Below the pieces are notes generated by a model that had not been told where the DNA came from, searched no databases, and saw nothing but the letters and a program-made list of their open reading frames with translations. Positions 31,805-46,239 of a stretch of 64,000 bases of DNA are shown here, in pieces (the first letter of the stretch is position 1; every line of letters starts with the position of its first letter). Source of the stretch: Ancylobacter sp. TS-1 (GTDB lineage Bacteria; Pseudomonadota; Alphaproteobacteria; Rhizobiales; Xanthobacteraceae); contig NZ_CP045144.1 in the NCBI RefSeq assembly GCF_009223885.1, positions 1,488,001-1,552,000 on the forward strand, read 5' to 3'. The position numbers and the translations under genes were made by a program.

Positions 31805-32242
31805 TCAGTCGGCGCCGGGATCGGCCTTGAGCCCGGCCGCCTCGATGCCGGCAATCGCTGCCGCCTCGTCATTCTCGGACGTGTCGCCGGAGATGCCGAC
31901 CGCGCCGACGATCTCGCCGGACTCGTCGCGGATCAGCACGCCGCCGGGCACCGGCACCAGCGCGCCGCCGACCACGTCCGTCACCGAGGTGACGAAGAAG
32001 GCCTGCTCCTTCGCCCGCTTGAAGATCGAGCGCGAGCCCATGCCGAGCGAGAGCGCGCCATAGGCCTTGCCGTGGGCGACCTCGAAGCGCTTCAGGCTGG
32101 TGCCGTCCTCGGCGGCGGATACCTTCACCGCCCCGCGCGCGTCGAGCACCACGACGGCCATCGGCTTGAAGTTGCCCTTGCGGATGACGTCGAGGGCGGT
32201 GGACAGGATCGTCTGGGCGGCATTCAGGGTCAGGCTAGGCAT
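31805..32242 (-). CDS. GlcG/HbpS family heme-binding-like protein
   Basis: 145 residues from ATG 32242 (MPSLTLNAAQTIL). The frame opens further to 32344, but that start lies inside the operator-like motif at 32337-32351. Family features: AVVVLDARGAVKV, FEVAHGKAYGALSLGMGSR, VGGALVPVPGGVLIRDESGEIVGAVGISGDTSENDE. GlcG is the small partner gene of the glycolate oxidase operon (glcDEFG), and HbpS binds heme and iron. Here it diverges from a TRAP transporter and is near a GlcD/GlcF-like fused dehydrogenase, which supports a link to hydroxyacid oxidation. Its biochemical role in that process is unproven. No signal peptide from this start. Confidence 0.88.
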   Translation of the reverse strand: MPSLTLNAAQTILSTALDVIRKGNFKPMAVVVLDARGAVKVSAAEDGTSLKRFEVAHGKAYGALSLGMGSRSIFKRAKEQAFFVTSVTDVVGGALVPVPGGVLIRDESGEIVGAVGISGDTSENDEAAAIAGIEAAGLKADPGAD

Positions 32243-32336
32243 GTTCGCTCCCTGGCTGGGCTGGCTCTTGCTGAGGCCGAATGAGCCTTTCGGTACGGCA
32301 ACGTCAAGTCTCGCCTTGCCTTCTTCGGGAATTTTT

Positions 32337-32351
32337 GCATTCATAATTCAT
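32337..32351. promoter_or_regulatory. Operator-like motif A, copy 1 (hbpS-dctP divergent promoter)
   Basis: GCATTCATAATTCAT, identical over 15 bases to 38639-38653. It sits between the divergent hbpS-like and dctP genes and includes the direct repeat ATTCAT-A-ATTCAT. It is likely a binding site for the FCD GntR regulator at 40064-40750. Confidence 0.6.
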
Positions 32352-32463
32352 AGTTCGGTTGGTCTAGGATCGGCGTCACTCGTATGGCGTCGTTCACGGC
32401 AACGCCGCGCCAAGCCAGAAAGCACCGGAAAACCGGTCGACAGGAAACCCAAAGGAGCATGCC

Positions 32464-33447
32464 ATGATCCGCTTCACGCGAATCGTGTCGGCATTCGCCG
32501 GCACTCTGTTGCTAGCCGCTACCGCAGTCGCCGAACCCGTCGAGGTCAAGCTCGGCCATGTCGGCGAGCCTGGCTCGCTGTTCGACCAGACCTCGCAGGA
32601 ATTCGCCAAGCGCGCCAATGCCAAGCTGGGCGACAAGGGCAAGGTCGTCGTCTACGGCTCCAGCCAGCTCGGCGGCGACACCGAACTGCTCAAGAAGCTC
32701 AAGCTCGGCACCGTCGATCTCGCCCTCCCCTCGACCGTGATGACCACGGTCGCGCCGGAATTCGGCGTGTTCGAAATGCCCTATCTGGTCAAGGACCGCG
32801 ATCATGCGGCCAAGATCCGGGAAGCCGTCATCAAGCCGGTGCTGGTGCCGATCGCCAAGGACAAGGGCTACGAGATCATCGCGGTCTGGGAGAACGGCAT
32901 CCGCCACGTCACCAACAACACGCGTCCGATCAACAAGCCGGAAGACCTCAAGGGCATCAAGCTGCGCGTCCCGCAGGGCGTGTGGCGCGTGCGCATGTTC
33001 CAGGCCTATGGCGCAACGCCGAGCCCGATGGCGCTCTCCGAAGTCTTCGTCGCCCTGCAGACCGGCGTGATGGACGGGCAGGAGAACCCGCTCGCCCAGA
33101 TCTACCCCTCGCGCTTCCAGGAAGTGCAGAAGTACCTGTCGATGACCGGCCATGTCTACACGCCGGCCTATCTCACCGCCGGCCGCAGCTGGTCGAAGCT
33201 GCCGCCCGACGTTCAGAAGGCGCTGACCGAGACCGCCATCGAGATGGAGCCGGTGGCTCTTGAGATCGCCGCCCGGCTCGACGGCGAGCTTCTCGGCAAG
33301 CTCAAGGAAGCGGGCATGCAGGTGAACGAGGTCGACAAGGCCGCCTTCATCGCCGCATCCAAGCCGGTCTATGAGGAGTTCGCGAAGGAAGTCCCTGGCG
33401 GCCAGAAGCTGGTCGACGACTCCCTCGCCCTCGGCAAGGGCTCCTGA
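32464..33447 (+). CDS. dctP: TRAP transporter periplasmic solute-binding protein (DctP family)
   Basis: 327 residues, ATG 32464 preceded by AAAGGAG. Signal peptide MIRFTRIVSAFAGTLLLAA with cleavage near AVA-EP. DctP hallmarks: KLGHVGEPGSLFDQTSQEFA, KLGTVDLALPSTV, the substrate-carboxylate Arg region DLKGIKLRVPQG and GVMDGQENPLAQIYPSRFQEV. It captures a carboxylate in the periplasm and delivers it to the DctQM permease encoded next. Gene order PQM and the 111-base gap to dctQ are usual. Neighbouring enzymes of 2-hydroxyacid and glyoxylate metabolism suggest glycolate, lactate or a similar anion as ligand. The symbol denotes the family, not C4-dicarboxylate specificity. Confidence 0.93.
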   Translation: MIRFTRIVSAFAGTLLLAATAVAEPVEVKLGHVGEPGSLFDQTSQEFAKRANAKLGDKGKVVVYGSSQLGGDTELLKKLKLGTVDLALPSTVMTTVAPEFGVFEMPYLVKDRDHAAKIREAVIKPVLVPIAKDKGYEIIAVWENGIRHVTNNTRPINKPEDLKGIKLRVPQGVWRVRMFQAYGATPSPMALSEVFVALQTGVMDGQENPLAQIYPSRFQEVQKYLSMTGHVYTPAYLTAGRSWSKLPPDVQKALTETAIEMEPVALEIAARLDGELLGKLKEAGMQVNEVDKAAFIAASKPVYEEFAKEVPGGQKLVDDSLALGKGS

Positions 33448-33558
33448 GCCCGTTCCGGCCGGCCATCCTCGCGGAACGCCGGCCGGAACATTCCCGAACG
33501 CCCCCCTCCCGCCCCATCAGAACGCGCGGCCGATCGGCCGCGCCCGTGGAACAGGAAC

Positions 33559-34110
33559 ATGCTCGCAATCAGAAGATCCTACGACCGGATCTTGGAAGTC
33601 ATCGCTGCCGCGCTGATGGCGGCCCTGACCGGCATCATCGTGCTCGGCTTCGTTTTTCGCGCCATCGATCTTTCGCTGGTCTGGTACGACGAGATTGCCT
33701 CGATCGGCCTGTGCTGGCTGACCTATTACGGCAGCGCCCTGGCGGCCCTGCGCGGCGCTCATATCGGCTTTCCGGGCATTGTGAACGCTTTCCCGCCGTC
33801 GCTGCGCGTCGCCAGCACCATCGTCGCGGAAATCATCGTGCTGGCGTTCTTCGTCATCCTCACCGTCACCGGCCTTGAGGTGCTCGACATCCTCCAGGGC
33901 AGCACGCTGGTCTCGCTGCCGAACGTGTCGCTGGTCGTCACCCAGTCGGTCATCCCGATCACGGCGGTGCTGTTCATCATCGCCGAGCTGATACGCTTCC
34001 CCGAGGTTCTCGCCGCCGCGCGGGGGGCCGGCTTCGAGGACCACGAGCTGAAGGAAGCGCTGGAAACCGTCCATGAATCGGCTCCTGCCGCGGGAGGCAA
34101 CGTCCGATGA
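33559..34110 (+). CDS. dctQ: TRAP transporter small permease (DctQ family)
   Basis: 183 residues, ATG 33559 with GGAACAGGAAC upstream. Four hydrophobic segments: ALMAALTGIIVLGFVFRAID, LCWLTYYGSALAALRGAHIG with the conserved GAHIGF motif, TIVAEIIVLAFFVILTVTGL, and VIPITAVLFIIAELIRF, followed by a charged tail. DctQ pairs with DctM to form the Na+-coupled TRAP permease. The stop overlaps the dctM start (ATGA), so the two are translationally coupled. Family certain, substrate unknown. Confidence 0.93.
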   Translation: MLAIRRSYDRILEVIAAALMAALTGIIVLGFVFRAIDLSLVWYDEIASIGLCWLTYYGSALAALRGAHIGFPGIVNAFPPSLRVASTIVAEIIVLAFFVILTVTGLEVLDILQGSTLVSLPNVSLVVTQSVIPITAVLFIIAELIRFPEVLAAARGAGFEDHELKEALETVHESAPAAGGNVR

Positions 34111-35426
34111 GCAGCACGATGGGTCTTATGTTCATCGGCCTGTTCGGCATGGTGCTGCTGAACGTGCCGATCGCCGTGGCTCTCGGCATGGTGGCGGTGA
34201 TCGCCATCTGGGCGACGCAGGGCGCCGACATGCTGCCGAACGTGGCGCTGGTCATGTTCGAGGGCGCCACCAACTTCCCGCTGCTGGCGATCCCGCTCTT
34301 CATCCTCGCTGGCGGCATCATGAACTCGTCGTCGATCTCGCGGCGGCTGATCAACCTCGCCTCCGCCATGCTCGGCTTCGTGCGCGGCGGCCTCGCCATG
34401 GTGACGATCGGCTCCTCGATGTTCTTCGCCGAGATTTCCGGCTCGGCGGTCGCCGGCGTCGCCGCGCTCGGCTCGCTGCTGATCCCGGCCATGAAGAGCC
34501 GCGGCTACAGCAAGGAATTCGCCGCGGCGATCTCCTCCTCTTCGGCGAGCCTGGCGATCATCCTGCCGCCGTCCATCCCCATGATCCTCTACGCGGTCAT
34601 GGCGCAGGTCTCGGTGGTGAAGATGTTCATCTCCGGCCTGCTTCCCGGCCTGCTGGGCGGCGCGGGACTGGCGCTGGCGAGCTGGTACTACGCGGTGAAG
34701 AACGACTTCCCCGTCGAACAGCGCTTCGCCTGGAGCCGGCTGGTGACGGCCTTCCGTGAGGCCCTGTGGGCGCTCATGCTGCCGGTCGTCATCCTCGGCG
34801 GCATCTTCGGCGGCTTCGTCACCGCCACCGAAGGCGCGGCCGTGGCCGTGTGCGCGGCGCTATTCATCTCGGTCATCGTCTATCGCGAGCTCGACTTCAG
34901 GGCCCTTTACCGGGCGCTCGTCGACGGCGCGCTGCAGACGGCGGTGGTCATGCTGCTGGTCGCCTCCTCGGCGCTGGTCGGCGTGTTCCTGACCGAAAGC
35001 CGGGTGCCGCAGGCTCTCGCCAGCTCCATCGCCGAGCTGACGACCAACCCCTACCTCGTCCTGCTGCTGCTGAACGTGCTCTTCCTCATCCTGGGCATGT
35101 TCCTGCATTCGGCGGCGGCGATCATCCTCACCGTTCCGATCGTCCTGCCCCTGATCCAGCAGGTGGGCATCGACCCGGTGCATTTCGGACTGGTGCTGAC
35201 GCTGAACCTCGCCATCGGCCAGCAGACCCCGCCCGTGGCCTCGGTGCTCATCGCCGCCTGCTCGATCGCCAAATCGGACATCTGGCAGACGACCAAGGCC
35301 AATGTCGGCTTCCTGTTCGTGCTGCTGATGGTGCTGATGATCTGCACCTATGTGCCGTGGTTCGCGCTGGCGCCGACCCAGTGGTTCTATGGCGACCCCT
35401 CGATCGGCGCCATGCCGGTGAACTGA
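34107..35426 (+). CDS. dctM: TRAP transporter large permease (DctM family)
   Basis: 439 residues from ATG 34107. About twelve hydrophobic segments, starting with GLMFIGLFGMVLLNVPIAVA. Conserved DctM blocks include EGATNFPLLAIPLFILAGGIMN, GSSMFFAEISGSAVAGVAALG, SSSASLAIILPPSIPMILYA and LNLAIGQQTPPVASVL. It forms the ion-coupled transport channel, an elevator-type transporter in the inner membrane. The start overlaps dctQ. A strong terminator follows at 35454-35487, so the operon is dctPQM only; the aminotransferase and dehydrogenase genes are separate units to the right. Confidence 0.95.
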   Translation: MSSTMGLMFIGLFGMVLLNVPIAVALGMVAVIAIWATQGADMLPNVALVMFEGATNFPLLAIPLFILAGGIMNSSSISRRLINLASAMLGFVRGGLAMVTIGSSMFFAEISGSAVAGVAALGSLLIPAMKSRGYSKEFAAAISSSSASLAIILPPSIPMILYAVMAQVSVVKMFISGLLPGLLGGAGLALASWYYAVKNDFPVEQRFAWSRLVTAFREALWALMLPVVILGGIFGGFVTATEGAAVAVCAALFISVIVYRELDFRALYRALVDGALQTAVVMLLVASSALVGVFLTESRVPQALASSIAELTTNPYLVLLLLNVLFLILGMFLHSAAAIILTVPIVLPLIQQVGIDPVHFGLVLTLNLAIGQQTPPVASVLIAACSIAKSDIWQTTKANVGFLFVLLMVLMICTYVPWFALAPTQWFYGDPSIGAMPVN

Positions 35427-35453
35427 CCGGCCCGACCATCCGCGCAACTCCCG

Positions 35454-35487
35454 CCTCCTCGGCCCCGGCCGGGGAGGCTTTTCTTTG
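35454..35487 (+). terminator. Rho-independent terminator of dctPQM
   Basis: GCCTCC and GGAGGC around a GC-rich inner stem (CCCCGGCC), followed by TTTTCTTT. About 28 bases past the dctM stop. Confidence 0.85.
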
Positions 35488-35518
35488 CCGGCGCCGCCGG
35501 GCGCAATACGGCACCGTT

Positions 35519-35557
35519 AAAAGACAAAGGCGCCCGAGCCGGCAAGCTCGAGCGCCT
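35519..35557 (-). terminator. Rho-independent terminator of the FAD/Fe-S dehydrogenase gene
   Basis: AGGCGC and GCGCCT with inner CGAGC/GCTCG arms; on the minus strand the stem is followed by TTTGTCTTTT. It lies about 36 bases past the stop at 35594. Confidence 0.8.
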
Positions 35558-35593
35558 GAATATCCGCAGCGATAAACGGGGAAGCGCCGTCCC

Positions 35594-38569
35594 CTATTCT
35601 GCCGCTTCCAGCCGGCGCGCCGGCTGGCGGCTGCGGGCGGCCGCCGCGCTGCGTGCCAGCACCTGCACGACATGGATGGCGTCGCGGTCGGCGCCGTCAT
35701 GGATCTGGTGACGGCAGGAGGTGCCGTCGGCGACCACCAGCGTGCCGGGCTCGGCCTTGCGCACCGCTGGCAGCAGCGAGAGTTCCGCCATGGCCAGCGA
35801 GGTGTCGATGGTCTCGGCGTGGTAGCCGAAGGCCCCCGCCATGCCGCAGCAGCTCGATTCGACCGTCTCGACATGCAGCCCCGGCACGAGGCGCAGCGCC
35901 TTCTCCACCGCGCCCATGGCGCCGAAGGACTTCTGGTGGCAGTGGCCGTGCAGCAGCGCCTTCTCGGCGACCGGCGCCAGCGGCAGGTCGAAGCGCCCGG
36001 CGTCGATCTCGCGGGCGATGAATTCCTCGATCAGCAGCGCATGGGCGGAGAGCTTCTGCGTCCCCTCCCCCGGCAGCATGGAGGGCAGCTCGTCGCGGAA
36101 GGCGAGCAAACAGCTCGGCTCCAGCCCCACCACCGGCACGCCGCGCGCGACGAAGGGGGCGTAGGTCTCCACCACGCGGCGCGCCTCGGCCCTCGCCTCG
36201 TCGACGAGGCCGGCGGACAGGAAGGTGCGCCCGCAGCACAATGCCCGCCGGCTCCCATCCACCGGACGCGGCATGTGCACGCGGTAGCCGGCCGAGGTGA
36301 GCACGTCGAGCGCGGCGACCACGTTCTCCTTCTCGAACCAGCGGTTGAAGGTGTCGGCGAACAGCACCACCTCGCGCCCGTCCGCCGGACCGAAGGCGAC
36401 GTCATCCTCGCGGAAGGCATCGGCGCGCCAGCGCGGCAGGGTGCGGCGGGCGGAGAACTGCGCCACGATCTCGGAGAACTTGGCCGCGCCCGGCAGGCTG
36501 TCGCGCAGGTTCAGCAGCCACGGCACCCTCGCCGCGAGGCAGGCATAGCGCGGCATGTAGGCGACGAGCCGCTGGTGCAGGGTGATGCCCTTCGCCTTCG
36601 CCCGCGCCGCCAGCGCCTCGATCTTCATCTTGGCCATGTCGACGCCGGTGGGGCATTCGCGCCGGCAGCCCTTGCAGGAGACGCACAGCTTCAGCGTCTC
36701 CATCATCTCGTCGGAGGCGAGCGCATCGGGGCCGAGCCGGCCGGAAATGGCGAGGCGCAGCGTATTTGCCCGCCCGCGCGTCACATCCTTCTCGTCGCGG
36801 GTGACGCGATAGCTCGGGCACATGACGCCGCCCACCGCCTTGCGGCAGGCGCCGTTGTTGTTGCACATCTCGATGGCGCCCTGCAGGCCGCCGCCCTCGC
36901 CGGAATAGCCGGTCCAGTCGAGCGCCGCCCGGATCGGCTCCACCTTGTAGTCCGGCGCGTAGCGGAACAGGCTGCGGTCGTCGAATTTGGGGGCGCGCAC
37001 GATCTTGCCGGGATTGTAGAGCCCATTCGGATCGAAGCGGTCCTTCACCTCCTCGAAGGCGCGCACGAGGCGCGAGCCGAACATCGGCTCGTGGAACTCC
37101 GAGCGCACGATGCCGTCGCCATGCTCGCCGGAATGCGAGCCCTTGTACTCACGCACCATGGCGAAGGCTTCCTCGGCGATGGCGCGCATCGCCTTCACGT
37201 CCTTCTCAAGGCGCAGGTTCAGCACCGGGCGCACATGCAGGCACCCTTCGGAGGCGTGCGCGTACCAGGTGCCGCGCGTGCCGTTCTTCTCGAACACTTC
37301 CGTCAGCCGCGCCGTGTAGTCGGCGAGGTGCGGCAGCGGCACGGCGCAGTCCTCGACGAAGGAGACGGGTTTGCCCGCCTGCTTCATCGACATCATGATG
37401 TTGAGGCCGGAGGTGCGCACATCGGCAATGGCGGCCTGCAAGCCCGCCTCGCGCACGGCGACGACGCCGCCCCACCGCGCGCCCTCGCGGTCCCAGCCGA
37501 AGCCGAGATCGCCCATCGTGTCTTCAAGAAGCTTCAGCCGGCGCTCGTTCTCCGCCTCGTCCTCGGCGAACTCGACGAGGAGGATCGCCTCCGGCGTGCC
37601 GCGCACGAACTGGCGCAGCGTCGCCTGGAACATCGGAATCTCGCTCGCCAGCGCCAGCAGCGTCGAATCCACCAGCTCGACGGCAATGGGCTTGAGCTTC
37701 ACCAGATGCTGGGCGGCATCCATCGCCTGATAGAAGCTGCCGAAATGGCAGGCGCCGACCACCTTCTTGCCGATCAGCGGCCAGAGCTTCAGCTCGATGC
37801 GGGTGGAATAGGCGAGCGTGCCCTCCGAGCCGACGAGGATATGGGCGAGGTTATAACCCCGCTCATTGGGCACCAGCGCATCGAGATTGTAGCCGCCGAC
37901 GCGGCGCTGGACGCTGGGGAATCGTGCGGCCACCTCACCGGCCTCGCGGGCGCCGAGGTCGAGCAGGTCGCGGGCGAGCGGGGCCAGTGGCGAATCGAGG
38001 GGCAGGCCGGAAAGGTTGTGGTCCACCTGGCCGAAATGCGCCTTGGTGCCGTCGGCCAGCATGGCGTCGATGGACAGCACATTGTCGCGCATCGTGCCGT
38101 AGCGCAGCGAGCGCCCGCCACAGCTATTGTTGCCGGCCATGCCGCCGATGGTGGCGCGCGAGGCGGTCGACACGTCGACCGGGTACCAGAGCCCGTGCTT
38201 CTTCAGCGCCCGGTTCAGGTCGTCGAGCACGATGCCCGGCTCGACCACGCAGCGCCGGCCCTCGACGTCGAGTTCCAGAATGCGGTTGAGGTGCTTGGAG
38301 CCGTCGATGACGAGCGAATCGTTGATGGTCTGGCCGCATTGCGAGGTGCCGCCACCGCGCGGCGTGACCGGGATGCCCTCCACGCGGGCGAGCGCGATGG
38401 CGCGTTCGGCCTCCTCGGCGGTACGCGGCACGACAACGCCGAGCGGCATGATCTGGTAGAACGAGGCGTCCGTGGCGTAGCGGCCGCGATTGAAGCGGTC
38501 GAACCACACATCTCCCGAGACTTCCGCCTTCAGACGCCGCTCCAGTCCGGGCGTCAGCCGTGCCGCCAT
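35594..38569 (-). CDS. Fused FAD-linked / Fe-S hydroxyacid dehydrogenase (GlcD-GlcF-like, YdiJ class)
   Basis: 991 residues from ATG 38569 (MAARLTPGLERRL); the frame continues upstream into the operator region. Order: FAD_binding_4 domain (PRGGGTSQCGQTINDSLVID near 70-90, IGGMAGNNSCGGRSLRYG near 141-158), FAD-oxidase C domain, a first Cys cluster (CNNNGACR and MCPSYR, near 565-580), a second 4Fe-4S motif LCVSCKGCRRECPTG (near 625), and a C-terminal cysteine-rich CCG domain (EPSCLLAFRDEL; VESSCCGMAGAFGYHAET, near 900). This fusion is known from D-lactate, D-2-hydroxyglutarate and glycolate dehydrogenases that pass electrons to the quinone pool. The adjacent aminotransferase points to glycolate or a related acid. 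Substrate not proven. Confidence 0.92.
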   Translation of the reverse strand: MAARLTPGLERRLKAEVSGDVWFDRFNRGRYATDASFYQIMPLGVVVPRTAEEAERAIALARVEGIPVTPRGGGTSQCGQTINDSLVIDGSKHLNRILELDVEGRRCVVEPGIVLDDLNRALKKHGLWYPVDVSTASRATIGGMAGNNSCGGRSLRYGTMRDNVLSIDAMLADGTKAHFGQVDHNLSGLPLDSPLAPLARDLLDLGAREAGEVAARFPSVQRRVGGYNLDALVPNERGYNLAHILVGSEGTLAYSTRIELKLWPLIGKKVVGACHFGSFYQAMDAAQHLVKLKPIAVELVDSTLLALASEIPMFQATLRQFVRGTPEAILLVEFAEDEAENERRLKLLEDTMGDLGFGWDREGARWGGVVAVREAGLQAAIADVRTSGLNIMMSMKQAGKPVSFVEDCAVPLPHLADYTARLTEVFEKNGTRGTWYAHASEGCLHVRPVLNLRLEKDVKAMRAIAEEAFAMVREYKGSHSGEHGDGIVRSEFHEPMFGSRLVRAFEEVKDRFDPNGLYNPGKIVRAPKFDDRSLFRYAPDYKVEPIRAALDWTGYSGEGGGLQGAIEMCNNNGACRKAVGGVMCPSYRVTRDEKDVTRGRANTLRLAISGRLGPDALASDEMMETLKLCVSCKGCRRECPTGVDMAKMKIEALAARAKAKGITLHQRLVAYMPRYACLAARVPWLLNLRDSLPGAAKFSEIVAQFSARRTLPRWRADAFREDDVAFGPADGREVVLFADTFNRWFEKENVVAALDVLTSAGYRVHMPRPVDGSRRALCCGRTFLSAGLVDEARAEARRVVETYAPFVARGVPVVGLEPSCLLAFRDELPSMLPGEGTQKLSAHALLIEEFIAREIDAGRFDLPLAPVAEKALLHGHCHQKSFGAMGAVEKALRLVPGLHVETVESSCCGMAGAFGYHAETIDTSLAMAELSLLPAVRKAEPGTLVVADGTSCRHQIHDGADRDAIHVVQVLARSAAAARSRQPARRLEAAE

Positions 38570-38637
38570 GATGCTCTCACTCCCATGCGCCCATCTGTGC
38601 GGGACCGCGAGCGGCCCCCATGGACTTGACCGCATTT

Positions 38638-38661
38638 TGCATTCATAATTCATTTATGCAA
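38638..38661. promoter_or_regulatory. Operator-like motif A, copy 2 (dehydrogenase-aminotransferase divergent promoter)
   Basis: Contains GCATTCATAATTCAT (38639-38653), identical to 32337-32351, and here it is enclosed by an inverted repeat TTGCAT/ATGCAA (38638-38643 and 38656-38661). It lies between two divergent genes and is a candidate target of the neighbouring FCD GntR regulator. Confidence 0.65.
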
Positions 38662-38751
38662 GATGGAACGCGCCGGGAGCGCGTATCCCCGGCCTTGCCG
38701 TCGATCAAAGGCGCGCGCGTCAACCGGCGCCGACCAAGGGAGAGAACACAG

Positions 38752-39957
38752 ATGTCCAGTAATGCCGCCCGGGTCGCGGGTCGTCATTTCCTGCAGATTC
38801 CGGGTCCCACCCCGGTGCCCGACCGCATCCTGCGCGCGATGGACATGCCGACCATCGACCACCGCGGCCCCGAGTTCCAGAAGCTCGGCAAGCGCGTTCT
38901 GGAAGGCATGAAGAGCGTCTTCAAGACCGCCAGCCCGGTCATCATCTACCCGGCCTCCGGCACCGGCGCGTGGGAAGCCGCGCTCGCCAACGTGCTCTCG
39001 CCCGGCGACAAGGTGCTGATGTTCGAAACCGGCCATTTCGCCACGCTGTGGAAGAACATGGCCATCAAGCTCGGCCTGCATCCCGAGTTCATCGCCTCCG
39101 ACTGGCGCATCGGCGCCGATGCCGACGCCATCGAGGCGCGGCTGCGCGAGGACAAGAACCACGAGTTCAAGGCGGTCTGCGTGGTCCATAACGAGACCTC
39201 GACCGGCTGCATCTCGCGCATCGCCGAGGTGCGCAAGGCGATCGACAATGCCGGCCATCCCGCGCTGCTGCTCGTCGACACCATCTCCTCGCTGGCCTCG
39301 ATCGACTACCGCCACGACGAATGGGGCGTCGACGTCACCGTTTCCGGCTCGCAGAAGGGCCTGATGCTGCCGCCGGGCCTGTCCTTCAACGCCATCTCCG
39401 ACAAGGCGCTGGCGGCGGCGAAGAAGTCCTCCATGCCCAAGCTGTTCTGGTCGTGGGAGGAGATGCTGCCCCATAACGAGAAGGGCTTCTTCCCCTACAC
39501 GCCCGGCACCAACCTGCTCTACGGCCTCGCCGAAGCCATCGACATGCTGCACGAGGAAGGGCTCGACAACGTCTTCGCCCGCCACGACCGCCACGCCGAG
39601 GCGACCCGCCGCGCCGTGCGCGCCTGGGGCCTGGAAGTGCTCTGCCGCGACCCGAAGTACTATTCGTCCTCGCTCACCGCCGTGCTGATGCCGGAAGGCC
39701 ATGACGCCGACGCCTTCCGCGAGAAGACGCTGAACCATTTCGACATGTCGCTCGGCACCGGCCTCACCAAGCTGTCGGGCCGGGTGTTCCGCATCGGCCA
39801 TCTCGGCGACACCAACGACCTGACCATTCTGGGCGCCCTCGCCGGCGTCGAGATGGGCCTGTCGGTCGCCGGCGTCCCGCACCGCAAGGGCGGCACGCAG
39901 GCCGCGATGGACTACCTCGCCGACTGCGCCTCGAACCCGATACGCGCCGCCGCGTGA
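38752..39957 (+). CDS. Serine/alanine-glyoxylate aminotransferase (SGAT class)
   Basis: 401 residues from ATG 38752, with AAGGGAGAG about ten bases upstream. Class V PLP aminotransferase: IPGPTPVPDRIL, YPASGTGAWEAALANVL (phosphate-binding loop), the VVHNETSTG block, VDTISSLASIDYRHDEWGVD (PLP-pyridine Asp) and VSGSQKGLMLPPG, where Lys in SQKG binds PLP. C-terminal VFRIGHLGDTND is the usual carboxylate Arg. It aminates glyoxylate with serine, alanine or aspartate, giving glycine; the aspartate-specific relative BhcA is in the same family. No other beta-hydroxyaspartate-cycle genes (aldolase, dehydratase) lie nearby. It diverges from the FAD/Fe-S dehydrogenase and precedes the GntR gene. Confidence 0.9.
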   Translation: MSSNAARVAGRHFLQIPGPTPVPDRILRAMDMPTIDHRGPEFQKLGKRVLEGMKSVFKTASPVIIYPASGTGAWEAALANVLSPGDKVLMFETGHFATLWKNMAIKLGLHPEFIASDWRIGADADAIEARLREDKNHEFKAVCVVHNETSTGCISRIAEVRKAIDNAGHPALLLVDTISSLASIDYRHDEWGVDVTVSGSQKGLMLPPGLSFNAISDKALAAAKKSSMPKLFWSWEEMLPHNEKGFFPYTPGTNLLYGLAEAIDMLHEEGLDNVFARHDRHAEATRRAVRAWGLEVLCRDPKYYSSSLTAVLMPEGHDADAFREKTLNHFDMSLGTGLTKLSGRVFRIGHLGDTNDLTILGALAGVEMGLSVAGVPHRKGGTQAAMDYLADCASNPIRAAA

Positions 39958-39966
39958 GCGGATCGG

Positions 39967-39997
39967 CCCGGCCGGCTTGCGAAATCCGCCGGCCGGG
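39967..39997 (+). terminator. Hairpin downstream of the aminotransferase gene
   Basis: CCCGGCCGGC and GCCGGCCGGG, a perfect ten-base stem with an 11-base loop, 10 bases past the stop. Only a short T-containing stretch (TCAATTTA) follows, so it may allow readthrough into the GntR gene. Confidence 0.55.
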
Positions 39998-40063
39998 TCA
40001 ATTTAGGGGTCCTTGTGACCTTTCATGCCGCGCCTCGCGCGCGGCCTCCGGGAGACCCGCCGC

Positions 40064-40750
40064 ATGGCGATGTCGGATACGGCCATTATTCCGCGACGCA
40101 GCCTGCACGACGAGCTGGCCGCGCAGCTGCGCGACATGCTCATGCGCGGCGATCTCAAGGCCGGCGACAAGATCTCCGAACAGGCGCTGTGCCAGCGCTT
40201 CGGCGTCTCGCGCACCCCGCTGCGCGAGGCGCTGAAGGTTCTCGCCAATGAGGGCCTGCTGATTCTCTCGCCCAATCGCGGGGCGAGCGTGGCGCGCGTC
40301 TCGCCCGAAGAGGTGGACGAGTTGTTCCCGATCATGGGGGCGCTTGAGGCGGTGGCGGGCGAGACTGCCTGCGCCCGTGCCACCGACGCCGACGTCGCCG
40401 CCGTCCAGGCCATGCATGACGAGATGCTGGTGTATTACCGGGCCGGCGACCCGGCCGCCTATCTCAGGCTCAACCGGGCCATCCACGAGAAATTCTTCGA
40501 CATCGCCGGCAACCACGCGCTGGCGCAGCTCTACCAGACCCTCATGGTGCGCATCCACGCGGTGCGCTTCATCGCCCAGAAGTCCAGCGACCGCTGGCGC
40601 GAGGCGGTGGACGATCATGAGGAGATGATGGCCGCGCTCAGGGCCCGCGACGGCGCGCGGCTCGGCGCCATCCTCAAGCTGCACCTGCGGCACAAGGCGG
40701 CGATGGTGCACGAATCGCTCGACCCGCCGGACGTCCGCGCCGCCGAGTAG
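40064..40750 (+). CDS. GntR-family regulator with FCD domain (module 1)
   Basis: 228 residues from ATG 40064 (MAMSD), with GGGAG nine bases upstream; an upstream ATG at 40025 has no support. Winged-helix N-terminus (SLHDELAAQLRDMLMRGDLK, then QALCQRFGVSRTPLREALKVL) and an all-helical FCD domain carrying likely metal/ligand residues (LNRAIHEKFFDIAGN, DHEEMMAAL, LKLHLRHK). FadR-type regulators of this kind often sense a carboxylate, and the gene's neighbours suggest a hydroxyacid or glyoxylate-related ligand. It is strikingly similar to the 45499-46239 regulator (both contain SRTP-x-REALKVL-A-x-EG, and DELFPIM or EELFPIM), suggesting duplication. Candidate targets: 32337-32351 and 38638-38661. 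Confidence 0.9.
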   Translation: MAMSDTAIIPRRSLHDELAAQLRDMLMRGDLKAGDKISEQALCQRFGVSRTPLREALKVLANEGLLILSPNRGASVARVSPEEVDELFPIMGALEAVAGETACARATDADVAAVQAMHDEMLVYYRAGDPAAYLRLNRAIHEKFFDIAGNHALAQLYQTLMVRIHAVRFIAQKSSDRWREAVDDHEEMMAALRARDGARLGAILKLHLRHKAAMVHESLDPPDVRAAE

Positions 40751-40876: not shown

Positions 40877-41476
40877 TCACGCCGCCTTCAGTTCACCCGC
40901 GCTCTTCAGCGCCCCTTCCAGCGCCGCCTCGCGCTGGCCCGCCGCGATGCCGTCAGCGACGATGAATTCCGGCGCGATGCCGATGAAGCCGAACACCCAG
41001 CGCAGATAAGTCTCCGCATGCTCGGCAGCGGCGGCGAAGCCGGGATCGGCATAGTTCCCCCCACGCGCCAGCGCCACGATCACCCGCTTGTTGCCGGCCA
41101 GCCCCGACACCGCGCCGTTGGCGCCATAGGCGAAGGTCTTGCCCGGCACGAGGATGCGGTCGACCCAGGCGCGAAGCTGCGTCGGCACCGAGAAATTGTA
41201 CATGGGCGCGCCGATCACCACGATGTCGGCGGCAAGGAAGGCGTCGAGCGCCTGCTGGCTGGCGACGTCACCCTTGCCGCCCGACAGCGGATGGTCGGCC
41301 GGCATGCTGGCCGGCGTGGCGTGCGGCAGCGGATCGGCCGCGAGGTCGCGATAGACCACCCTCAGCGCCGGGTCGGCCTGCGTCAGGCGCGCAACGATGG
41401 CGGCGCTGACCTGACGGCTGACCGAATGGCCGCCGAGGATGGAGGAATCGAGATGGAGGAGCGTCGCATTTGACAT
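40877..41476 (-). CDS. azoR: FMN-dependent NADH-azoreductase
   Basis: 199 residues, start MSNATLLHLDSSILGG. Flavodoxin-like fold of the AzoR/quinone reductase family: VIGAPMYNFSVPTQLRAWVD is the signature FMN-binding block (M-Y-N-F), followed by RILVPGKTFAY and ALARGGNY, with GHSVSRQVSAAI near the N-terminus. It reduces quinones and azo compounds with NADH by two-electron transfer, protecting against quinone stress. Its divergent neighbour is an HxlR-type regulator with a single cysteine, the arrangement known for quinone-sensing regulators such as Bacillus YodB. The putative operator at 41498-41512 is 22 bases upstream of the start. Confidence 0.93.
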   Translation of the reverse strand: MSNATLLHLDSSILGGHSVSRQVSAAIVARLTQADPALRVVYRDLAADPLPHATPASMPADHPLSGGKGDVASQQALDAFLAADIVVIGAPMYNFSVPTQLRAWVDRILVPGKTFAYGANGAVSGLAGNKRVIVALARGGNYADPGFAAAAEHAETYLRWVFGFIGIAPEFIVADGIAAGQREAALEGALKSAGELKAA

Positions 41477-41497
41477 GGGGGAACCTTCATTGCCACG

Positions 41498-41512
41498 GTT
41501 ACGAATTGTGAC
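41498..41512. promoter_or_regulatory. Putative HxlR operator in the azoR-hxlR intergenic region
   Basis: GTTAC and GTGAC separated by GAATT: a GTNAC-N5-GTNAC palindrome, 15 bases, in the 63-base divergent promoter. Proposed binding site for the adjacent HxlR protein. Confidence 0.5.
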
Positions 41513-41539
41513 CTGGACTAATTAGGTGCCTGCCCCCAT

Positions 41540-41992
41540 ATGCCGCAAGAACGCACAATTCTCATACCGAGGCACACGGAAGTGACTGAGGAACATCAAC
41601 ATTTCCAGAACGAAAGCTGCCGTGGCGTCAGCCGTGTTCTGGCCCGCATCGGCGACAAATGGAGCGTGCTGATCGTCATGATGCTGGCCGACGGCCCGCG
41701 CCGCTTCAACGAGATCAAGCGCATGATCGACGGCATCTCGCAGCGCATGCTCACCCTCACCCTGCGCGGGCTGGAGCGCGACGGCCTCGTCTCGCGCACC
41801 GTCTATCCCACCATCCCCCCGCGCGTGGATTACGAGCTGACACCGCTCGGCCATTCGTTGCGCGAGCCGGTGATGGCGCTTGGGCAATGGGCACAGGCGC
41901 ACCTGTCGCAGATCGCCCAGGCCCAGGCCCGCTTCGACAGCGCCATCGCCGGCGAAACGCCCCTCGCGCCGGTGCGCCGGACGGGTTCGTGA
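41540..41992 (+). CDS. HxlR-family winged-helix regulator, single-cysteine type
   Basis: 150 residues from ATG 41540; a GTG at 41582 would remove 14 residues. HxlR hallmarks: [59 protein letters not shown] and [15 protein letters not shown]. The protein has just one cysteine (ESC, residue 27), at the position used by YodB and related proteins to sense quinones and diamide. It is divergent from azoR, so I infer it represses azoR and itself and is inactivated by electrophilic modification of this cysteine. Highly likely regulator; the sensing mechanism is inferred from family knowledge. Confidence 0.9.
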
Positions 41993-42158: not shown

Positions 42159-42246
42159 TGAAATGATTGATGCGTTAGCGTGCCGCCAACCGCGAGGCTG
42201 GGAACGTTTCCCGCCCGCTCAAGAATTCTCACTAGGGAGGACGTTC

Positions 42247-43251
42247 GTGCCCAACTATGCCCTTACTGCGTTTGCGCTCACGCTCACGGTGGCCCTTCCC
42301 GGCGCCGCTCTTGCCGACTGGCAGCCGAACCGCCCGGTCGAGTTCGTGGCGGCGGCCGGTCCCGGCGGCGGCACCGACACCTTCGCCCGCGTGGTCCAGT
42401 CCGCGCTGAGCAAGAACGAGTTGCTGACCACGCCGATCATCGTCGCCAACAAGTCCGGCGGCTCGGGCGCGGAGACCTTCATCTACGCCAAGTCGAACAA
42501 GGGCGACCCCTACAAGCTCTATTTCGGCACCCAGGACGCCTATGTCCTGCCGCTCGCCAACAAGCTTTCCTACAGCCTCAAGGACCTTACCCCGGTCGCG
42601 GCGCTGGTGTTCGACCCCTTCATCCTGTGGGTGAACCCCAAGACCTCGGGCATCGAGGACGTGAAGGGCTTCATCGCCAAGGCGAAGGAAAACCCCGGCC
42701 AGATCAAGCTCGGCGGTGCCAAGGCCAAGGAAGCCGACGAGACGCTGATGACCCTCATCGAGCGCGCCACCGGCACCGACCTCACCTACATCCCCTACAA
42801 GTCGGGCAGCGAGGCGGCGATCCAGGTCGCGGGCGGCCACATCACCGCCAACGTCAACAACCCGAGCGAGAGCGTCGAGCAGTGGAAGGCCGGCGTGCAG
42901 AAGCCGCTCTGCGTGTTCGAGAGCGAGCGCCTCGCCGACAAGACCGTCATCGCCGACGGCAAGTCGTGGAACGACGTCCCGACCTGCGTGGAAGCCGGCA
43001 TCGACGTGAAGACCTTCGCCCAACCCCGCACCGTGTGGGCGGCGGCGGACATCCCGCCGGAGGCGCTGGCCTATTATGTCGAGCTGCTGACCAAGGTCGT
43101 CGGCACCCCGGAGTTCAAGGGCTATGAGGAACGCGGCGCGCAGATCCCGCGCATGCTGACCGGCGACGCCTTCAAGGACTTCATCGCCAAGCACGAGGCG
43201 ACCTACGCCGAGATCTACAAGACCAATGGCTGGCTGAAGGCCGCGCAGTAG
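42247..43251 (+). CDS. tctC: TTT transporter periplasmic binding protein (TctC/Bug family)
   Basis: 334 residues from GTG 42247, chosen for GGGAGG seven bases upstream and the directly following signal peptide (PNYALTAFALTLTVALPGAA, cleavage near ALA-DW). The upstream ATG 42163 would precede the signal. Tct/Bug features: RPVEFVAAAGPGGGTDTFAR (ligand carboxylate loop), NKSGGSGAETFIYAK, PVAALVFDPFILWVNPKT, and KLGGAKAKEADETLMTLI. It binds a carboxylic acid for the TctBA permease. The ligand is not predictable; the CoA-transferase and crotonase genes suggest an organic acid activated to its CoA thioester. Confidence 0.92.
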   Translation: MPNYALTAFALTLTVALPGAALADWQPNRPVEFVAAAGPGGGTDTFARVVQSALSKNELLTTPIIVANKSGGSGAETFIYAKSNKGDPYKLYFGTQDAYVLPLANKLSYSLKDLTPVAALVFDPFILWVNPKTSGIEDVKGFIAKAKENPGQIKLGGAKAKEADETLMTLIERATGTDLTYIPYKSGSEAAIQVAGGHITANVNNPSESVEQWKAGVQKPLCVFESERLADKTVIADGKSWNDVPTCVEAGIDVKTFAQPRTVWAAADIPPEALAYYVELLTKVVGTPEFKGYEERGAQIPRMLTGDAFKDFIAKHEATYAEIYKTNGWLKAAQ

Positions 43252-43357
43252 CCCGAGCTGCGGCCGACGGCCGAGGGGGCGGCGCGCCGCCCCCTCACCC
43301 CCGAACCCAAACCACGACCTGAAGCGGGCGCCACCGGCGCCGGCCCGGAGCGACGTC

Positions 43358-43840
43358 ATGGACATCTCGCGCAACACCATGGAGATCGCGACCGCCTGCG
43401 CGACCGCCGCCGCCGGCGGCGTCGTGTGCTACGGCGCGACGCTCAACGGCATCACCTGGAACGACGGCGGCCCGGAGCCGGGCTATTTCCCGTTCTACAT
43501 CGGCTGCCTCATCATCTTCGGCAGCCTCGTCACCATCGGCCAGACCGTGCTGCGCCGCGCCACGGTGTCCGATGTCTTCATCGACGGGGAGCGCCTGCGC
43601 ACCGTCCTCGCCTTCTTCCTGCCGATCGTGGCGCTGACGCTCGTCTCCGCCTGGCTCGGCCTCTACATCGGCATGGCGCTCTACATTTTCTACGCCATGC
43701 GGGTCTCCGCCGGCTTCCGCAACCCGGCCTCGCTGTTCACCGCCGCTGTGGTGGTCGCGGTCAATTTCGTCATCTTCGAGAAGATCTTCATGGTCCCGCT
43801 GCTGAAGGGCCCGATCCTCGAATATTTCGGCATCTACTGA
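43358..43840 (+). CDS. tctB: TTT transporter small permease (TctB family)
   Basis: 160 residues, start MDISRNTMEIATACATAAAG. Four hydrophobic segments are visible: an N-terminal helix, GYFPFYIGCLIIFGSLVTIG, VLAFFLPIVALTLVSAWLGLYIGMALYIFY and SLFTAAVVVAVNFVIFEKIF. The WNDGGPEPGYFPFYIG loop is the conserved TctB motif. It partners with TctA in a secondary transporter driven by the ion gradient. The gap to tctC is 106 bases and to tctA 39 bases; order C-B-A is standard. No ambiguity about family. Confidence 0.9.
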   Translation: MDISRNTMEIATACATAAAGGVVCYGATLNGITWNDGGPEPGYFPFYIGCLIIFGSLVTIGQTVLRRATVSDVFIDGERLRTVLAFFLPIVALTLVSAWLGLYIGMALYIFYAMRVSAGFRNPASLFTAAVVVAVNFVIFEKIFMVPLLKGPILEYFGIY

Positions 43841-43879
43841 AAAACGAAGAAGAAAAAGAGCAAGGGAGCGCACGCGGCC

Positions 43880-45415
43880 ATGGGTAATTTCGGTCAGTTG
43901 ATGGACGGCTTCGCCGTCGCCCTCACCGCCCATCACGTGATGATCATGGTGGTGGGCGTCCTGCTCGGCCTCGTCGTCGGCGTGCTGCCGGGCCTCGGCG
44001 CACCCAATGGCGTGTCGCTGCTGCTGCCGCTGACCTTCACCATGGACCCGATCTCGGCGATCATCCTGCTGACCTCGATGTACTGGGGCGCGCTGTTCGG
44101 CGGCTCGACCACCTCGATCCTGTTCAACATCCCCGGTGAGCCCTCCTCCGTCGCCACCACCTTCGACGGCTACCCGATGGCCAAGCAGGGCCAGGCGGTA
44201 CGCGCGCTCACCCTCGCCTTCACCTCGGCCGGCATCGGCGCGCTCACCGGCGTCATCGTCATCACGCTGCTGTCGAGCTGGGTCGCCAATTTCGCCATGC
44301 GCTTCGGCGCGGCCGAGTATTTCGCCGTCTATTTCATGGCCTTCGCCAGCTTCATCGGCATGGCCGGCGGCTCGCCCTTCAAGACGCTGGTGTCGATGAT
44401 GCTCGGCTTCGCCGTCGCGACCGTCGGCATCGACACCATCTCCGGCGAGAGCCGCCTGACCTTCGAGTTCGACGAGCTGATCGGCGGCATCTCCTTCCTC
44501 ATCGCGGTCATCGGCCTGTTCGGCCTCGGCGAACTGCTGCTGACCATGGAGGAAGGGCTGAAATTCGAGGGCGTGCGCGCCAAGCTCGACATCCGCACCA
44601 TCGCCCGCACCGTCGCCGAAGTGCCGCGCTACTGGGTCACGCTGGTGCGCAGCGCGCTGATCGGCTGCTGGATGGGCATCACCCCCGGCGGGCCGACCGC
44701 CGCCTCCTTCATGAGCTACGCGCTGGGCCGGCGTTTCTCGAAGCGCGGCAAGAACTTCGGCCGGGGCGAGCCGGAAGGCATCGTCGCGCCCGAGACCGCC
44801 GACCATTCGGCCGGCTCCTGCGCCCTGCTGCCCATGCTGGCGCTCGGCATTCCCGGCTCCGCTACCGCGGCGGTGATGATGGGCGGGCTGATGATCTGGG
44901 GTCTTTCGCCCGGGCCGATGCTGTTCTCCACCCGCCCGGATTTCGTCTGGGGCCTCATCGCCTCCATGTATATGGGCAACCTCATCGCCGTCGTGCTGGT
45001 GCTGGCGACGGTGCCGCTGTTCGCCGTCATCCTGCGCGCGCCCTTCACCGTGGTCGGGCCGATCATCACCATCGTCTGCGTCATTGGCGCTTATACAGTT
45101 GCCAACCACGTCTTCGACATCTGGCTGGCGCTGGGCTTCGGCATCGTCGGCTACGTGTTCAAGAAGCTCGACTACCCGCTCGCGCCCTTCGTGCTCGCCA
45201 TGGTGCTCGGCGACAAGGCGGAGGATGCGTTCCGGCAGGCCATGCTGACCTCGGACGGTTCGCCGGCGATCTTCTTCGCCAATCCGCTCGTCGCCACCAT
45301 GATGGGGCTCGGCATCTTTCTGCTGTGCCTGCCGCTGATCTCCGCCGTCTTCAAGGGCGGATTCTTCGGCCGCGCCGGAGCGGGAGATGCCGGGGCGCAG
45401 GGGAGGTCGGCGTGA
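43880..45415 (+). CDS. tctA: TTT transporter large permease (TctA family)
   Basis: 511 residues from ATG 43880 (MGNFGQLMDGF). Conserved TctA blocks: GLVVGVLPGLGAPNGVSLLLPLTF, SMYWGALFGGSTTSILFNIPGEPSSVATTFDGYP, ALLPMLALGIPGSATAAVMMGGLMIWGL and PLAPFVLAMVLGDKAEDAFRQAML. About twelve membrane helices. It is the transport subunit of the tripartite tricarboxylate transporter family, acting with TctB and the periplasmic TctC. The stop is followed about 84 bases later by the GntR gene in the same direction, so regulator and transporter could share a transcript. Confidence 0.95.
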   Translation: MGNFGQLMDGFAVALTAHHVMIMVVGVLLGLVVGVLPGLGAPNGVSLLLPLTFTMDPISAIILLTSMYWGALFGGSTTSILFNIPGEPSSVATTFDGYPMAKQGQAVRALTLAFTSAGIGALTGVIVITLLSSWVANFAMRFGAAEYFAVYFMAFASFIGMAGGSPFKTLVSMMLGFAVATVGIDTISGESRLTFEFDELIGGISFLIAVIGLFGLGELLLTMEEGLKFEGVRAKLDIRTIARTVAEVPRYWVTLVRSALIGCWMGITPGGPTAASFMSYALGRRFSKRGKNFGRGEPEGIVAPETADHSAGSCALLPMLALGIPGSATAAVMMGGLMIWGLSPGPMLFSTRPDFVWGLIASMYMGNLIAVVLVLATVPLFAVILRAPFTVVGPIITIVCVIGAYTVANHVFDIWLALGFGIVGYVFKKLDYPLAPFVLAMVLGDKAEDAFRQAMLTSDGSPAIFFANPLVATMMGLGIFLLCLPLISAVFKGGFFGRAGAGDAGAQGRSA

Positions 45416-45498
45416 TCGTCTTCCCGGCGCCGGTGTTTCCCGGCTATCCTTCGGACAGGAAACGTCCAGGCTCGCAGAAGCCGCCAAGGAAACAACGA

Positions 45499-46239
45499 AT
45501 GCCGTCCGCTCCGATCGTCCGACACTCTCTCCACGAATCGCTCGTGGCGCCCCTGCGGGAAATGATCCTGCAGGGCGAATTGCGGCCCGGCGAGAAGGTG
45601 CCGGAGGAACAGCTCTGCGAGCGCTTCGGCGTCTCCCGCACGCCGATCCGCGAGGCGCTGAAGGTGCTCGCCGCCGAGGGCGTGCTGCAGATCCTGCCGC
45701 ATCGCGGCGCCATCGTCGCCCGCATCACCGAAGAACAGATCGAGGAGCTTTTCCCGATCATGGCCTCGCTGGAACGGCTCGCCGGCATCCTCGCCTGCAC
45801 CCGCGCCAGCGACGTCGAGATCGCCCGCGTGCGCGCCCTGCACGACCGGATGATGGAGCATTTCGAGAAGGGCGAGGAGGCCGAGTACCTGCGCCATAAC
45901 CGGCTGATCCACGAATCCTTCTTCGAGATCACCGGCAATGCGACGCTCTCGGCGTTCTACCAGCAGATCCTCACCCGCATCCATGCCTGCCGCTTCGTGG
46001 TGCGCAAGAGCCGCGAGCACTGGGCGGCGGCGGTGATCGAGCACAAGGCCATGATCGAGGCGCTGGAAGCGCGCGACGGGCCCCGCCTCGGGAACCTGCT
46101 GGAAGTCCACGTGATGGGCACCACCTCCGGCATCGCCCGCGCCTTCATCCAGCGCACCGGCATGGAGGCGCCGGCTGCGCCGGCCGAGGACCGCACTCCG
46201 GCGCGCGGCCGCAAGGCCGGCAGCCCGCTGACCGCCTGA
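45499..46239 (+). CDS. GntR-family regulator with FCD domain (module 2)
   Basis: 246 residues from ATG 45499 (MPSAPIVRHSLHESLVAP), AAGGAA ten bases upstream; the open frame before it has no family similarity. Winged helix (LREMILQGELRPGEKV, CERFGVSRTPIREALKVLAA) and FCD domain (EELFPIMASLERLAGILACT, HNRLIHESFFEITGN, EHKAMIEALEARDG, EVHVMGTTSG). It is very similar in layout and sequence to the regulator at 40064-40750. A C-terminal basic Ala/Pro-rich tail of about 25 residues (PAEDRTPARGRKAGS) is an addition. It sits between tctCBA and the CoA-transferase gene and likely controls both via the motifs at 42140-42158 and 46277-46287. Confidence 0.9.
   Translation: MPSAPIVRHSLHESLVAPLREMILQGELRPGEKVPEEQLCERFGVSRTPIREALKVLAAEGVLQILPHRGAIVARITEEQIEELFPIMASLERLAGILACTRASDVEIARVRALHDRMMEHFEKGEEAEYLRHNRLIHESFFEITGNATLSAFYQQILTRIHACRFVVRKSREHWAAAVIEHKAMIEALEARDGPRLGNLLEVHVMGTTSGIARAFIQRTGMEAPAAPAEDRTPARGRKAGSPLTA

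Follow-up and report, generated by a model that had tools for sequence, protein, structure and literature searches.

A conserved and probably substrate-induced 2-hydroxyacid locus with exchangeable importers in Ancylobacter

Which 2-hydroxyacid is handled by a compact catabolic gene cluster of Ancylobacter sp. TS-1, and what controls its uptake and oxidation? The cluster occupies positions 31805..40750 of a 64,000-nucleotide stretch (the window; C1:1488001-1552000 of a one-contig genome of 3.96 Mb) and combines an hbpS-like gene, a TRAP importer, a fused FAD/Fe-S dehydrogenase, a serine-glyoxylate-type aminotransferase (SGAT) and an FCD-GntR regulator, here termed GntR1. An earlier note, made from the DNA letters, had listed these genes, had pointed to a 15-base motif shared by two promoters, and had proposed that a 2-hydroxyacid, with glycolate as the best fit, is imported, oxidised to glyoxylate and used to make glycine. 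All of the genes claimed are confirmed by Pfam or NCBIfam matches; the nearest named relatives belong to Ancylobacter and Starkeya, and the A. polymorphus dehydrogenase is 93% shared. Gene content, operator conservation, GntR1 co-occurrence, importer exchange, active-site residues and the linkage of a CoA-transferase/hydratase pair were computed directly, and the whole is probably best explained by a substrate-induced catabolic regulon for a hydroxy-dicarboxylate-like acid, served by an exchangeable importer. The regulon is well defined and made of ordinary parts; its record of importer exchange is unusual, its operator is atypical and a CoA pair is linked to it. No description of this gene set was found in the open-access literature, which is weak evidence of absence because subscription papers lay outside the search.

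The shared 15-mer GCATTCATAATTCAT occurs exactly twice in the genome, both times at this locus, and makes up most of an imperfect palindrome with a 3-nucleotide centre, which is completed by extension on the other strand as TGAATTATGAATGCA. The two copies, operator 1 between hbpS and dctP (32336..32350, minus strand) and operator 2 between the dehydrogenase and SGAT genes (38638..38652, minus strand), are exact in both divergent promoters, just as the earlier note had described. The listed starts of the dehydrogenase and SGAT genes are too early, judging by the length of close homologues, and that of hbpS is probably too early likewise; with corrected starts, both copies are therefore intergenic. 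Operator 2 overlaps the -10-like CATAAT of a promoter-like site for SGAT (38621-38649, plus strand; a consensus match only). The same sequence lies between the dehydrogenase and SGAT genes of A. polymorphus, where a perfect version, TGCATTATGAATGCA, precedes the importer genes. The possibility that the 15-mer forms a DNA hairpin was rejected, its folding not being unusual (z -0.81 and 0.32).

The pattern TGMATTATGAATKCA has three exact sites in the window genome and, allowing at most one mismatch, is found in 22 of the 30 genomes sampled for the genus, with 72 sites against 2 for a reversed control pattern. An orthologue of GntR1 (at least 371 bits) is present in the same 21 genomes that possess the full dehydrogenase (at least 1747 bits), and all 21 carry operator sites; one genome, G119, has just a 543-bit relative of the dehydrogenase. 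Among the nine genomes lacking GntR1, a site is found only in G134, which has one, at one mismatch. Thus, the operator site, GntR1 and the dehydrogenase are linked by co-occurrence. GntR1 itself (40025..40750, plus strand) matches PF07729 with 86 bits (cut-off 24.3) and PF00392 with 67.2 bits (cut-off 27), and its gene starts 67 nucleotides after SGAT, with which it is probably co-transcribed.

The operator can also be followed into other genera, where its usual form is TGAATT-N3-AATTCA, using a wider sample of 80 dehydrogenase loci. The untuned operator of the window was sought upstream of 77 dehydrogenase genes (L009 was omitted as belonging to the same genus, and the truncated L019 and L040 were never used), with expectations taken from first-order resampled sequence, 40 per region. 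Nine of the 77 regions contain it with one arm mismatch or fewer (0.17 expected) and 21 with two or fewer (2.35 expected), compared with 6 and 65, respectively, of 3970 other 300-nucleotide stretches from the same loci. A family consensus is matched in 15 of 78 upstream regions at one arm mismatch or fewer (0.1 expected) and in 23 of 78 at two or fewer (1.5 expected), counts that are biased because the consensus was picked from the same loci. The palindrome may serve as a tag for a genome-wide search for the remaining regulon. It precedes a second TTT operon in L146, L152, L153 and L162, and in L146 an AraC-type regulator and a gene like the L159 beta-propeller (no Pfam match) lie upstream of that operon. 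In L156, L159, L160 and apparently L161 the palindrome precedes a secreted beta-propeller-like gene, whose L159 product only just passes the Lactonase cut-off (22.7 bits against 21.7).

The core of the locus is stable and its importer is not. Fourteen of the 21 dehydrogenase-bearing loci of the genus were inspected (12 retrieved, that of the window and that of A. polymorphus, L009 = G022), and hbpS, the dehydrogenase, SGAT and GntR1 are kept together in all 14. The importer is of the TRAP type in eight of them, the window included, and of the TTT type in five; in the remaining genome, G135, it is missing beside the dehydrogenase, and a TTT set sits directly beside GntR1 and the core instead. 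In the window, dctP encodes the solute-binding protein (32464..33447; PF03480 272.7 bits; nearest solved structure 4nq8, 197 bits), dctQ the small membrane subunit (33559..34110; PF04290 59 bits) and dctM the large membrane subunit (34107..35426; PF06808 389.8 bits, TIGR00786 399 bits), all on the plus strand, and the three products score above the respective cut-offs, placing them within TRAP. Ahead of the importer, the operator is matched exactly in the window genome, G103, G120, G121 and the five TTT genomes, with a single mismatch in G126 and with two in G124, G129 and G141. On a tree of three core proteins with 13 tips, in which the sister of the window is the TTT-bearing G122 (support 98), parsimony requires at least four importer changes, a count that ignores tree error although several nodes have support of only 58 to 78. 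Shuffled importer labels gave four or five changes in 1672 of 2000 trials, so that the importer changes about as often as under random labelling. Among the 40 wider-sample loci with 8 kb on both sides, TRAP genes are found in 10, TTT genes in 13 and both in none.

The simplest reading of this exchange is that the TRAP and TTT importers carry the same substrate. By sequence these binding-protein-dependent importers are ordinary members of their families; what sets them apart from TRAP and TTT importers elsewhere is that they are interchangeable under one operator at this locus. Solute-binding importers are usually annotated singly, on the basis of weak similarity. At this locus, importers of two unrelated families accompany the same enzymes and the same operator, so that testing each for its ligand could settle what the module acts on. 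A second, TTT importer lies further along the window (42163..45415, plus strand, by Pfam matches: tctC 42163-43251, tctB 43358-43840, tctA 43880-45415; PF03401 81.8, PF07331 50.4 and PF01970 475.9 bits), and no operator copy precedes it. A TTT set at this place is also found in G122, G125 and G135 and is absent there from the other 10 genus loci. The segment 42163-46239 thus holds a TTT importer with an FCD-GntR of its own, GntR2.

The dehydrogenase (35594..38569, minus strand, 991 residues) is a fused FAD/Fe-S enzyme resembling YdiJ. Its listed ATG at 38653 would give 1019 codons, and its nearest homologues mostly have 990 or 991 residues; within the 1019-codon frame, whose numbering is used for residues such as Arg475, FAD_binding_4 (139 bits), FAD-oxidase_C (154 bits) and Fer4_8/Fer4_17 are recognised, and a CCG domain scores 20.2 bits, slightly below its cut-off of 20.6. 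An AlphaFold2 model with a mean pLDDT of 81 resembles LDHD/D2HGDH in its N-terminal half and LutA in its C-terminal part. The five D2HGDH residues that bind C1/C2 and the metal (Arg386, His434, His441, Glu475 and His476) are all present, and are conserved in 78 or 79 of 79 relatives, the rest being X (one partial protein among the 80 loci was left out). The side-chain pocket is Leu/Val/Tyr/Arg where GlcD, including the genome's own GlcD, has Phe/Cys/Val/Leu, and the pocket residues Arg475 and Tyr464 are invariant in 79 of 79 relatives and in 120 of 120 homologues (the best 120 of about 8000). Neither mouse LDHD nor human D2HGDH, both of the VAO/PCMH family, matches this pocket. Curated models likewise leave the enzyme outside the named types: its FAD half misses the GlcD cut-offs (TIGR00387 204.5 of 567.9 bits; NF008408 98.8 of 897), its Fe-S half misses that of GlcF (NF008434 56.2 of 333) and the whole misses that of YdiJ (NF049975 498.3 of 1350). 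With E. coli YdiJ, a D-2-hydroxyglutarate dehydrogenase, it shares the single-chain FAD and Fe-S/CCG arrangement over the whole length and an Arg at the position of D2HGDH Asn443; it differs in overall sequence (28% identity over 1030 columns), in having Tyr rather than Phe at 432, and in its linkage to SGAT, an importer and a GntR gene. The substrate most likely carries an anionic group beyond C2 and is hydroxy-dicarboxylate-like.

The combination of dehydrogenase and aminotransferase genes extends over Alpha-, Beta- and Gammaproteobacteria, SAR116 and roseobacter lineages among them, and in 53 of the 64 loci with enough flank no more than 3.5 kb separates SGAT from the dehydrogenase, counting loci of one species (L016 and L070, for example) that are not independent. 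The gene set is therefore conserved together, as the earlier note had expected. Some gammaproteobacterial relatives of the dehydrogenase (L059, L068, L081, L084) have no SGAT nearby, share a different neighbourhood and perhaps have another function. At least one database entry (P0124) names a member of the family D-2-hydroxyglutarate dehydrogenase.

The SGAT-like class V aminotransferase (38752..39957, plus strand, 401 residues, as in nearest homologues of about 401; PF00266 77.2 bits, cut-off 21.5) is the sole match of its family in the genome at E 1e-20, and its top named homologues come from Starkeya koreensis and Ancylobacter species. BhcA, SGAT and AGXT are its closest aminotransferase models, and the best solved relative is 6pk1 (377 bits), named serine-glyoxylate aminotransferase; it differs from BhcA in falling short of that model's cut-off (NF045640, 461.3 of 650 bits). 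The hbpS-like gene (31805..32242, minus strand, about 145 residues; listed ATG 32344) belongs to the GlcG/EfgA fold family, with a PF03928 match of 97.2 bits (cut-off 25) starting at residue 38 of the long frame. The earlier note had likened it to GlcG; the domain is shared, but a BLASTP comparison with E. coli GlcG is empty at 1e-3 and the best relative in the PDB is EfgA (6bws, 46 bits), and a recognisable GlcG orthologue was accordingly rejected.

The conserved locus extends past the cluster, at least to position 48409. GntR1 is followed by a flavodoxin-fold FMN reductase-like gene (40877-41476, minus strand; PF02525 153 bits), an HxlR-type regulator gene (41540-41992, plus strand; PF01638 105.5 bits), tctCBA, GntR2 (45325..46239, plus strand, start uncertain; PF07729 80 and PF00392 72 bits; 52% identical to GntR1), a CoA-transferase gene and an enoyl-CoA hydratase gene. 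The first two of these (40877..41992) are absent from the retrieved stretch in G121, G124 and G129. The CoA-transferase is of the CaiB/BaiF type, family III (46332..47603, plus strand, 423 residues; PF02515 439.8 bits, cut-off 23.3), and the start of the hydratase (47600..48409, plus strand, 269 residues; PF00378 137.4 bits; NF004796 355 bits, cut-off 272) overlaps its stop as ATGA, marking a translationally coupled pair. The CoA-transferase adjoins GntR2 in 13 of 13 retrieved genus loci (88 to 94% identical), and the hydratase is found in 11, the other two stretches ending within the CoA-transferase. Among 79 loci of other genera, 20 have the CoA-transferase, 31 the hydratase and 20 both, adjacent on one strand in 16; in L028, L039, L043, L047 and L053, CoA-transferase, hydratase, TRAP and SGAT genes form one run. 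Pairs of this kind, with a family III transferase coupled to a crotonase-type hydratase, include CaiB/CaiD of carnitine metabolism and the like. No curated CoA-transferase model is reached above its cut-off: the best are succinate-glutarate (313 of 750 bits) and succinyl-CoA:mesaconate (301 of 700), and the L-carnitine model gives 139.7 of 413, placing the transferase nearer the dicarboxylate CoA-transferases. The pair is linked to the locus by position and is at most a candidate member of the GntR1 regulon.

The presence of glcDEF bears directly on the proposal that the cluster is a compact alternative to that operon. Genes for glcD, glcE and glcF lie together in the window genome (L109), with 58%, 32% and 42% identity, respectively, to their E. 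coli counterparts; GlcF scores above its cut-off, and GlcD reaches 507.1 bits, slightly below its cut-off of 568, and 681.4 bits with NF008408. GlcF is found in 113 of 119 family genomes and in 78 of the 80 that bear the dehydrogenase, the two without it being G042 (82% complete) and G068 (66%); excluding G073 and G113, which match in the Fe-S half only, leaves 76 of 78. Across Alpha-, Beta- and Gammaproteobacteria it is found in 42 of 44 dehydrogenase-bearing genomes, 39 above cut-off (these genomes come from 44 of the 80 loci, and at least five are also in the family set). The cluster is thus no alternative to glcDEF, since nearly all of its bearers have both; such coexistence may still be compatible with both enzymes acting on glycolate. 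The cluster resembles E. coli glcCDEFGBA in its FCD-GntR control, GlcD-type flavoprotein, Fe-S part and GlcG/HbpS-fold protein, and departs from it in lacking GlcE, in the fusion of the dehydrogenase, in the side-chain pocket and in having glcDEF elsewhere in the genome.

A third exact operator-like site, the only other one in the genome, lies at C1:1851925 (L114:5926-5940), 7 nucleotides past the stop of glxR, the last gene of gcl-hyi-glxR (gcl: TIGR01504, 1168 bits), and precedes a conserved GC hairpin and a PanE-like gene. Of the 17 genus genomes carrying glxR together with GntR1, 12 have it, 11 of them at the same distance; none of the 7 with glxR (11 copies) and without GntR1 does (Fisher p 0.0046, ignoring shared ancestry), and the closest match there, within the first 40 positions, shows 3 to 8 arm mismatches. 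In G124 the site lies at 20 nucleotides with two arm mismatches, and in G129 the arms are kept and the centre is inverted. Decayed-looking forms are seen in G142 and G084, which lack GntR1, and also in G141, which has it; G142, with three mismatches, is no further from the operator than G141 and G135. If functional, the third site ties the regulon to glyoxylate metabolism, and together with SGAT homology it makes a glyoxylate link plausible. If this holds, a site between the glxR stop and the terminator-like hairpin could tune glyoxylate carboligase output, by roadblock, antisense or small RNA. Several genus genomes have two glxR copies, and in L172 (G084, contig C29) the second has one in-frame stop.

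A number of observations weigh against a GntR1-controlled regulon for a hydroxy-dicarboxylate-like acid. We infer binding of GntR1 to the palindrome solely from their co-occurrence, and each of the 21 GntR1 genomes has a GntR2 (237 to 252 bits) as well, on a different contig in G127; GntR2 is found as well in G062, a genome without operator sites. A FadR-subfamily consensus, TKGT-N3-ACMA, is given with named exceptions in a passage of PMC4494728, and TGAATT-N3-AATTCA does not fit it: the half-site is GAATT, GT/AC is lacking and the 3-nucleotide centre is kept. Thus GntR1 has the GntR and FCD domains of FadR/FCD-GntR regulators, while its putative operator departs from the usual FadR box in the half-site. 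In the distant loci the set is looser, with no site at two or fewer arm mismatches in 56 of 77 upstream regions and, among the 40 loci with full flanks, no GntR gene nearby in 18, neither TRAP nor TTT genes in 17, and hbpS near the dehydrogenase in only 8 (none in 32). Most distant loci lack the CoA pair, only 13 of the 39 with full 8-kb flanks having both genes, and no operator copy precedes it in the window, the nearest weak match being at 53701 with three mismatches. As for the substrate, the dehydrogenase is GlcD-like at two of four side-chain positions (Thr390 to Leu, Lys401 to Val), which makes the pocket argument only moderate, and the third site at gcl-hyi-glxR points to glyoxylate.

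These last two observations are the ones that favour glycolate, whose import, oxidation by the fused dehydrogenase and conversion to glycine by SGAT would form a second inducible route beside glcDEF; SGAT/BhcA-type aminotransferases act on glyoxylate, and the BhcA model gives the 461 bits cited. Glycolate is nonetheless disfavoured by the pocket Arg where GlcD has Leu, by the low GlcD model scores and by the CoA-transferase/hydratase pair, which glycolate would not need and whose presence in the window itself lowers the odds further, as well as by glcDEF in the same genome and in nearly all dehydrogenase-bearing genomes. It is thus distinctly unlikely, and of the function first proposed, the import, oxidation and transamination of a 2-hydroxyacid, co-regulated under an adjacent FCD-GntR, is supported, while glycolate as the best fit is not favoured. 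The coexistence of glcD​EF, the pocket Arg and the linked CoA pair are together the reason for preferring a hydroxy-dicarboxylate-like substrate over it. Plain catabolism of D-2-hydroxyglutarate, D-malate or D-lactate draws on YdiJ, the closest characterised enzyme, with which the pocket Arg is shared; it is improbable given the 498-bit score against the YdiJ cut-off, and for D-2-hydroxyglutarate and D-lactate the genome already has two D2HGDH-like enzymes (Lys401 equivalent; L110, L111) and one LDHD-like enzyme (L108), as judged by pocket residues. D-malate itself may still be the acid.

D-glycerate, or an acid resembling D-erythronate, would be oxidised to hydroxypyruvate or its homologue, which SGAT could exchange with serine and glycine/glyoxylate, and gcl-hyi-glxR would share metabolites with this route, Hyi and GlxR connecting hydroxypyruvate and glycerate. 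The nearest solved binding proteins of DctP (4nq8, 4pdh, 4p9k and 4pdd), whose ligands we take to be pantoate and erythronate, are in keeping with it. TRAP homologues solved with pantoate or erythronate are mentioned in a passage of the IseP paper (PMC11668362). The loop after the second Arg is, however, PQGVWRV in DctP against ENPIHI/ENPVHI in three of the solved proteins and ENKVHM in 4pdd. A C3 hydroxyl has no obvious need of Arg475 and the CoA pair would go unused, so that this route is very unlikely. Also considered was sulfolactate, for which a membrane-bound dehydrogenase, SlcD, is described from Ruegeria pomeroyi in a passage of PMC4334477. Pantoate was considered too, and the GC hairpin separates the PanE-like gene from the third site. 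A glutarate or mesaconate route, likewise considered, would agree with the best CoA-transferase models and with an acyl-CoA dehydrogenase beside some distant relatives.

For the preferred hydroxy-dicarboxylate-like acid, the following sequence of events may be proposed. GntR1, seated on the TGAATT-N3-AATTCA operators, would repress hbpS/dctPQM and dehydrogenase/SGAT-gntR in the two divergent promoters, and would leave them when substrate or product is present. The importer, TRAP here and TTT in sister genomes, would then take up the carboxylate, and the YdiJ-like flavoprotein would oxidise the C2 hydroxyl of the D-2-hydroxyacid to the 2-oxo acid, if flux runs in that direction, passing electrons via its Fe-S half, probably to quinone. 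SGAT would transaminate, with an amino acid on one side and the 2-oxo acid or glyoxylate on the other. The CoA pair, putatively under GntR2, could add water to a related CoA-bound acid or remove it, thereby supplying or depleting the pool of hydroxyacid. A more ambitious version, in which a fixed core and operator, a new YdiJ-like substrate class, a CoA-cycling pair, swapped TRAP/TTT cassettes and a GntR1 site at a 3' end all belong to one system, is tentative and rather doubtful. Beside the module, at 25741-30657 of the window, lies a candidate frame for a repetitive, autotransporter-like protein of 1638 residues, named by reading.

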